NCBI GenBank assembly: GCA_030429735.1
Contig: JAUIET010000006.1
Span: 186,001-250,000 of the forward strand
Direction of reading: 5' to 3'
Length of the DNA stretch: 64,000 nucleotides
DNA from: Gammaproteobacteria bacterium
GTDB lineage: Bacteria; Pseudomonadota; Gammaproteobacteria; Pseudomonadales; JAUIET01
The translations under genes and the position numbers were made by a program. How positions within the stretch are numbered: position 1 is the stretch's first letter; every line of letters starts with the position of its first letter. A model generated the notes under the pieces. That model had not been told where the DNA came from, did no database searches, and was given only the letters and a program-made list of their open reading frames with translations. This document shows positions 8,823 through 10,166 of the stretch, piece by piece.

Positions 8823-10166
8823 TCATTTTTCGTGTGAGCCAGTTGCGCCAGCAACTACCTTGGTGCGACTCACCTGCAGATACTGATCGAGGAATTTAAG
8901 CACAAGACCTTGCGCGCTGTTTGCCTCTGGTAGCTCAGTGTTGGCCGTGAACGCGTGCCACATCGCGTCGAAAACATGCAAATCTGCATACACACCAGCT
9001 TCTCGCAATGCACGATGCAGGCGTACTGTGCTGCTCAACAACAAATCACGGGTGCCGGTTATCAGCAGGCTGGGTGGAAAGCCCTTGTGGTAGTCAGCAT
9101 AGACTGGAGACACAAGAGGGTGTTTCAAGCCCGCTTCGCCAGCATAGATTTCAGCTGCCGCTGCCAATACGCCTCCGTACACAGGAAGCACCGGGTCCAC
9201 CGCCTCATTGGTCACGTAGCTATCACCGGTTTTCGATAGATCCGCCCACGGCGTATTCATATAGGCTGCGGCCGGTAAAGGCATACCCTGATCTCTCGCA
9301 CGGATAATCACAGATGCCGTAAGGCTGCCACCGGCACTGGTACCAAATACGGCGATATTTTCTGCCGCTGTAGTGTCCAGAACCGCCTGATATACGGCAA
9401 CCCCGTCATCGACTGCAGCCGGGAAAGGGTACTCTGGCGGCATTCGGTAATCCACCGCAATCACCTTGTAGTGGCCGGCCATTGCAATACTGGCAGCCTC
9501 AAGCAGGCTGGCCTCTCCACCAAAGAACACGTATGCGCCTCCGTGCAAAGCAATCAGTACTTTGTCGCGCTTGGACTCGGGTAGCTTGTTTGGCGTTACG
9601 ATCCTTACTGGCACGCCGCCTAACTGCGTAGTCTCTATAGTCAGCTGTGCTATATTTTTTAGCCGGTCAATCTGCGGCGCTACACGTAAATTCTGCTGGC
9701 GTTTGAGTTGCTGCCATTGTGTGGGTGATGATGGCCTCAGTAACCGTCCTTCCATCAACACAGGCCTGCCAAGAATCGCTTGCGCCTCAGAACTGACGTG
9801 GCGCGGCACCGGGTACTTTGCAGGTACTGGCTTCTCCGTTGCCAGCGCCGGGTTGAAACTAGGGCAGCTCTGAAAAATACCCAATGCCTCTGCGTGGCCT
9901 GTAGCGTGCCGTGATGAGGCGCGTTCCGAAGGCCAGTGCTGGTTGTCCCTGGCGAGGAGCGCAACGAAGTCACGGTGCGCTACAGGCCGCGCCCTCCGGG
10001 GCTTACAGGCGACTCCAGCCTTTTCGTTGCGAGTTTTTGACGTACGGCCAGTATGCCTGCAAACTCGCGCCTCAATGCTGGAGTCGCCTGTAAGCCAGAG
10101 GCATCGGGTATTTTTCAGAGCTGCCCTAGCGCTTATCAGCAAAAAAAACGCAGCGCGACTCAACAT
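8823..10166 (-). CDS. Exported HSL-type alpha/beta hydrolase interrupted in frame by a MITE
   Basis: 447 residues. The catalytic part is a hormone-sensitive-lipase/acetyl-esterase type alpha/beta hydrolase: oxyanion HGG at 208-210, nucleophile elbow GTSAGG with Ser277, and a C-terminal His404 (MWHAF). It should hydrolyse carboxyl esters. ATG at 10166 has an AGGA ribosome-binding site eight bases away. Residues about 14-102 are encoded by the MITE-like element at 9863-10125. The insertion adds exactly 267 bases (89 codons) without a stop. Removing them joins MLSRAAFFLLISA to SFNPALA, restoring an ordinary signal peptide with an Ala-Leu-Ala cleavage site and a 358-residue precursor. Whether the present protein is still exported or functional is open. 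Confidence 0.85.
   Translation of the reverse strand: MLSRAAFFLLISARAALKNTRCLWLTGDSSIEARVCRHTGRTSKTRNEKAGVACKPRRARPVAHRDFVALLARDNQHWPSERASSRHATGHAEALGIFQSCPSFNPALATEKPVPAKYPVPRHVSSEAQAILGRPVLMEGRLLRPSSPTQWQQLKRQQNLRVAPQIDRLKNIAQLTIETTQLGGVPVRIVTPNKLPESKRDKVLIALHGGAYVFFGGEASLLEAASIAMAGHYKVIAVDYRMPPEYPFPAAVDDGVAVYQAVLDTTAAENIAVFGTSAGGSLTASVIIRARDQGMPLPAAAYMNTPWADLSKTGDSYVTNEAVDPVLPVYGGVLAAAAEIYAGEAGLKHPLVSPVYADYHKGFPPSLLITGTRDLLLSSTVRLHRALREAGVYADLHVFDAMWHAFTANTELPEANSAQGLVLKFLDQYLQVSRTKVVAGATGSHEK
9863..10125. mobile_element. MITE-like element, 263 bp with about 30-bp terminal inverted repeats and CTAG target duplication
   Basis: The terminal inverted repeats 9863-9892 and 10096-10125 match at 29 of 30 positions. 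Both ends abut CTAG (9859-9862 and 10126-10129), consistent with a 4-base target duplication; a TA duplication with slightly longer ends is equally compatible. The interior holds two further inverted repeats: 9896-9914 with 9970-9988 (17 of 19), and 10000-10019 with 10077-10096 (perfect 20), the latter enclosing 10029-10036/10061-10068. It encodes no transposase, so it must have been moved by an element elsewhere. CTAG fits the YTAR target of IS5-type elements, but this is only a hint. It sits inside the hydrolase signal-peptide codons. Confidence 0.85.

Follow-up and report, generated by a model that had tools for sequence, protein, structure and literature searches.

A MITE with a two-hairpin interior lies in frame in the signal-peptide sequence of a gammaproteobacterial hydrolase gene

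Introduction

In-frame fusions of MITEs with bacterial genes are already known from RPE of Rickettsia and YPAL of Yersinia (PMC10969869, PMC2229807). Among the closest described mobile elements is MITEPsy1 of Pseudomonas syringae pv. phaseolicola, which has the end GGAAGGTCTGAAAAAGCC and a target-site duplication (TSD) of CTAG or YTAA and was shown to move (PMC3189936). The element reported here shares with MITEPsy1 the IS5-like ends, the 4-nt TSD and the lack of autonomy. Yet MITEPsy1 has a length of 100 nt, its insertion shifts the reading frame and a two-hairpin interior is unreported (PMC3189936). IS5-group insertion sequences (IS) have their ends and 4-bp YTAR-type targets in common with our element, but carry a transposase and are devoid of the two hairpins.

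Rickettsia palindromic elements are open-frame repeats located in frame in protein genes, like the element of this study (PMC10969869, PMC2229807). In contrast to them, the present element has a defined TSD, IS-matching ends, young copies and a two-arm, strand-specific interior; the likeness is one of behavior only and kinship with the RPE families is not claimed. Yersinia YPAL/RU-2 is comparable in that it fuses to form part of a signal peptide, and the 107-bp Correia element of Neisseria has an open intragenic and a closed intergenic form, in parallel to the 263-bp and 285-bp forms described below (PMC2229807). Both differ from our element by unrelated ends and a single hairpin. The CIR repeats of Caulobacter and Brucella also consist of two hairpin arms with a linker and are kept across genera (PMC2229807), but they have no stem of terminal inverted repeats (TIR) and are never intragenic, whereas our element has paralogous, convergent arms between its TIR. 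Finally, P. fluorescens R6 (177 bp with a 34-bp inverted repeat) and R200 (320 bp) are of similar size, a comparison made by description only (PMC2718517). Because the covariance model R1 introduced below matches many genomes of the order, R6 and R200 are possible members of the present family, which we regard as a lead.

Results

The element in the hydrolase gene

The window, i.e. the whole stretch of 64,000 nucleotides analysed, contains an alpha/beta hydrolase gene with an insertion close to its 5' end. The features of the locus are as follows.

8823..10166, minus strand: alpha/beta hydrolase ORF, 447 aa with and 358 aa without the element
8946..9554, minus strand: Abhydrolase_3 domain (aa 205-407, profile positions 2-209 of 210), unaffected by the insertion
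9859..9862: left copy of the TSD CTAG, read from the sequence, a true 4-bp duplication outside the TIR
9863..10125: MITE of 263 bp, with copies in the genome and in a congener
9863..9892: left TIR GGCAGCTCTGAAAAATACCCAATGCCTCTG, its outer part resembling IS5-group IS ends
9882..9884, minus strand: in-frame TTG close to the element end (MGIFQSCPS...), a putative restart codon judged from sequence
9891..9989, sense plus: hairpin module L (model R1 67.6 bits; covariation, wobble bias)
9990..10001: inter-hairpin spacer CCCTCCGGGG, CCCnnnGGGG pattern in nearly all relatives
10002..10101, sense minus: hairpin module R (model R1 87.7 bits; covariation, wobble bias)
10096..10125: right TIR, 29/30 complementary to the left TIR
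10126..10129: right copy of the TSD CTAG, from comparison of element copies
10128..10166, minus strand: first 13 codons MLSRAAFFLLISA, n- and h-region of a signal peptide by hydropathy

The arms 9859-9892 and 10096-10129 comprise 34 nt each and are 97% complementary with CTAG and 29/30 without it, in agreement with an earlier note on this DNA that had described matching terminal repeats flanked by CTAG on both sides. Within the 64-kb window the TIR half-pattern occurred at the two ends only (chance expectation 0.01). Folding of the 271-bp stretch yielded -104 kcal/mol compared to -48 kcal/mol for shuffled sequences (z = -15). The element is open in one of six frames, which is the one used by the hydrolase ORF. 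As the same note had stated, the element plus one CTAG amounts to 89 stop-free codons in this frame, and its removal in silico shortens the protein from 447 to 358 aa, the empty form starting with MLSRAAFFLLISA|SFNPALA.

Copies in the genome and in relatives

The genome contains 13 full-length copies of 263 bp and five of 285 bp, 18 in total, besides several deleted ones. The longer form carries a 22-bp extension within the loop of the L-hairpin (L007-L010, L018). Two subfamilies, which start with GGCAGC and GGAAGC, have diverged by about 10%; in the younger one copies of equal length are 99-100% identical. The congener (G001) has four full-length copies of 86-87% identity, and its hydrolase orthologue is free of the 89-residue segment. 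The near-identical sister copies and this empty orthologue bear out the earlier view of a recent mobile insertion.

Single-hairpin derivatives of 159 or 178 bp were also observed (L019, L020, L021, L022, L246). Since three of these keep intact CTTG, CAAG or CTAG duplications, single-arm forms may move as well. In another genome of the order (G011), which gave about 90 TIR hits, several minimal palindromes of 46 bp consist of little beyond the two TIR (C45:16780-16825, C165:9295-9340, C309:4091-4136).

Ends, target sites and the putative mobiliser

The TSDs among the copies were CTAG, TTAA, CTTG/CTTG and CAAG/CAAG. Because the duplications vary (TTAA, CTTG, CAAG), the element proper measures 263 bp and the TSD 4 bp; the direct repeats CTTG, TTAA and CAAG at other copies ruled out that CTAG is part of the TIR. 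Thus the element is short, with 29/30 TIR, a 4-bp TSD, multiple copies and no transposase, as is characteristic of a MITE.

TIR and TSD agree with IS5-group insertion sequences, and complete IS with such ends are present in two relatives. In Bacterioplanes sanyensis (G039) the order is TTAG|GGCACCTCTGAAAAATACCCC, a transposase of the NF033581 type (MSQLSFSDAEG...) and AGGTGCC|TTAG; G015 has another such IS, which reads TTAG|GGAACCTCTGATTAATTC...|TTAG. From this kinship of TIR and TSD we infer that the insertion in the hydrolase gene is a recently inserted, non-autonomous MITE copy moved in trans by a DDE transposase of the IS5 group (IS5 family). The enzyme would recognize ends of the GG..CCTCTGAATAA type and 4-bp targets of the YTAR type. 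Searches of the host genome, which is 97% complete, with PF05598, PF01609 and NF033581 did not detect an IS5-group transposase, which leaves loss, oversight or too great a divergence of the mover as explanations. The IS4-type and other transposases of the host were rejected as mobilisers: none matched PF05598 and the two matches to PF01609 were of the wrong kind.

Two side observations concern transposases. At locus L175 (G039:C1:197638) the IS5-group IS breaks off abruptly after its left end and first codons; a repeated sequence follows, which contains an ORF resembling a REP-associated (Y1-type) transposase. Locus L146 (G000:C22:168409) combines a 400-aa ORF, which looks like an IS110-type transposase, with a transposase remnant (DDE_Tnp_1 fragment) immediately behind it.

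The two-hairpin interior

The interior consists of two hairpins of about 99 nt, which are paralogous once one of them is reverse-complemented. All loci with two matches to model R1 had the orientation plus then minus; thus the arms are convergent. Elements of G001, G002, G006 and G039 follow the same plan with quite different sequences, mostly in 259-263 bp, and all four have the CCCnnnGGGG spacer between the hairpins.

Twenty modules were compared at 27 pairs. Of all cells, 95.4% were paired compared to 62.6% after shuffling and 35-45% when the alignment was slid. Double changes occurred at 25 of the 27 pairs, and the covariation score was 0.968 compared to 0.296 for shuffles. With L read on the plus and R on the minus strand, the non-Watson-Crick pairs were 63 GU and 2 AC in an alignment not fitted to the structure; 54 modules aligned by the model, an alignment that leans towards the structure, had 144 GU and 3 AC. 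Since equal numbers of GU and AC would be expected from template-switch repair or from a cruciform in DNA, this asymmetry points to selection on one strand of each arm. The unpaired motifs AAGGCG, CAAC and an apical GTCnAGAC-like sequence are conserved between the covarying stems, and the hairpin length is 97-100 nt in most genera.

The interior does not look like transposon debris; it comprises two diverged copies of a single structured hairpin. The data suggest that this structure is maintained, in at least 53 genera, by selection on a single-stranded nucleic acid, most likely RNA. Owing to the convergent arms, a transcript from either side would present one sense-strand hairpin first. A consensus scan of the element found neither an outward promoter nor a terminator. 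In a comparison with attC by eye only, CAAC was located in an internal loop opposite AAGG rather than in a GTTRRRY/RYYYAAC-type pair at the base of the hairpin.

Distribution in the order

Model R1 matched 112 of 392 genomes of the order, i.e. 53 of 142 genera, and many genomes had at least 10 matches. The training sequences of the model came from some of the 112 matched genomes, but most of these contributed none. In nearly all sampled genera the element length was 257-267 bp, and loci with both TSD copies intact had CTAG, TTAA or CAAG, i.e. YTAR-type targets. No family of Rfam 15 was matched (highest score 18 bits, gathering score 97), nor was one by eight related loci. Plasmids and phages had no nucleotide match to the element, and viral contigs did not contain the exact TIR pattern. 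The structured MITE family appears to be undescribed to date.

Insertion sites

Insertion contexts were obtained by reconstruction of the empty sites, with gene boundaries taken from ORFs rather than from a gene finder. The stop codon of a long ORF was overlapped by 8 of 22 copies in the host and by 7 of 19 in other genomes, while about 4% of YTAR control sites lie on stop codons (Fisher P ~1e-5 for each set). When compared with the CTAG sites of the host genome alone, P was 0.007. The TSD restores the stop codon after insertion.

Four N-terminal copies are in frame (L001, L003, L012, L013). In these genes the 263-bp form, which adds 267 nt with the TSD, resides in the hydrolase after aa 13, in a lipoprotein at aa 21, in a beta-lactamase-like protein at aa 8 and in a lolA ORF at aa 14. 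The lipoprotein is 3D-domain-like in our own reading; a Pfam search with it gave no match. The lolA copy, L012 (G000:C17:217173-217443), belongs to the older subfamily and sits exactly on the stop codon of ftsK, simultaneously in frame with the overlapping lolA and directly ahead of its hydrophobic core. It may alter the start of lolA, a gene that is usually essential. L014 splits the signal peptide of a DUF2147 protein in the wrong orientation; L016 lies in frame inside a DUF1287 gene, where a change in the TIR now creates a stop. All further copies lie between genes or elsewhere.

The frame-shifting 285-bp copies (L007-L010, L018) were never found within a long ORF. Clear intragenic copies were in the open frame in 4 of 6 cases against an expected share of about 0.22 (P ~0.02), or in 6 of 8 when ambiguous cases were included (P ~0.002). 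The lower count applies because L005 and L012 are exactly on upstream stop codons and may be in frame by chance. This excess, which rests on few copies, is suggestive. With one stop-free frame and an addition of 267 nt, the 263-bp form could persist after insertion into 5' coding ends as an in-frame addition.

The hydrolase product

The congener orthologue (G001:C59, 56% identity) has the signal peptide LFRLFILTASALLLLTTPSFAQQ, and the orthologue of G030, which likewise has no insert, has a corresponding signal peptide. The read-through product of the interrupted gene retains the h-region AAFFLLISA, and the element contributes a candidate ARA|A cleavage site. The likeliest product would be the 447-aa read-through protein with the signal peptide MLSRAAFFLLISARA|ALKNTR... 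This protein, extended by about 85 residues, may continue to be exported, the 89-residue insert then preceding an intact catalytic domain. The earlier note had suggested that the insertion may have rendered an exported esterase cytosolic, mislocalised or differently processed. The location of the insertion in frame in the signal-peptide sequence was verified; loss of export was not established, as the h-region is kept and ARA|A is gained.

A restart at the TTG, which has a weak Shine-Dalgarno-like GAGG 2 nt upstream, would give the hydrolase no signal peptide. For L003, L012 and L013 the corresponding restart products have credible signal peptides.

Discussion

The best explanation as a whole, which we consider quite probable, is a recent copy of an IS5-group MITE with a selected two-hairpin interior that persists in frame. 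An ordinary MITE in which only the TIR matter could do without such selection: TIR and TSD fully account for mobility, and palindromes and covariation would be functionless products of quasipalindrome repair or gene conversion. Indeed, template-switch correction of hairpins is known in bacteria and keeps their palindromes perfect. Yet repair of this kind predicts as many AC as GU pairs and a drift to perfect palindromes, contrary to the observed 63 to 2; moreover, unpaired motifs are conserved between the covarying stems and the hairpin length is nearly constant across genera. Thus we hold a functionless interior to be very unlikely. A role of the hairpins in single-stranded DNA, while the element is replicated or transposed, agrees with the wobble pairs, since the GU:AC asymmetry is compatible with any single strand, and the element is, after all, mobile DNA. 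However, IS5-group transposases are DDE enzymes that work on double-stranded ends, and features of single-stranded-DNA transposons were not seen. This makes a DNA-level role improbable, and RNA the favored substrate of selection.

With respect to the protein, the insertion might abolish export of the hydrolase, leaving it cytosolic or mislocalised owing to a nonfunctional split signal peptide. The h-region is indeed parted from the native ALA cleavage site, and a TTG restart would produce a protein without signal peptide. On the other hand, the read-through form retains the h-region with ARA|A immediately after it, and catalytic domain and reading frame are intact. We regard loss of export as possible but doubtful; judged by these sequence features, read-through with kept or reduced export appears somewhat likelier than a clean loss. 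Alternatively, the element could supply a new 5' end, in which case restart at the TTG would join MGIFQS(C/Y/F)P to the native signal-peptide core and the in-frame N-terminal copies would be functional gene starts. The credible signal peptides of L003, L012 and L013 speak for it, as does the need to express lolA somehow. Yet the sole Shine-Dalgarno-like sequence is the GAGG 2 nt from the TTG, the consensus scan found no promoter and the idea fails for the hydrolase itself, so that we consider it unlikely in general.

Returning to the selected two-hairpin MITE, a wider reading is conceivable, which we put forward tentatively: mobile structured RNAs would be spread across the order as IS5-type MITEs with convergent hairpins, whose conserved loops may be read by a host or transposon factor and whose frame-neutral length in the present genome may let copies settle in the N-termini of exported proteins.

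Most in-frame MITE fusions known before come from Rickettsia, Yersinia and Neisseria. The present gammaproteobacterial genome adds several by an element with a defined TSD and IS-related TIR, and with empty sites in a congener it can be tested what such fusions cost and what becomes of them. Insertion on stop codons, seen for 8 of 22 copies compared to 4% of control sites, hints at the way in which these elements stay harmless. Of greater weight is the double hairpin, strand-specific and conserved in structure, that an order-wide MITE family carries. As a structured module with compensatory changes in 53 of 142 sampled genera and no match in Rfam, it is a clear candidate for a functional RNA, or single-stranded DNA, that travels as a MITE.
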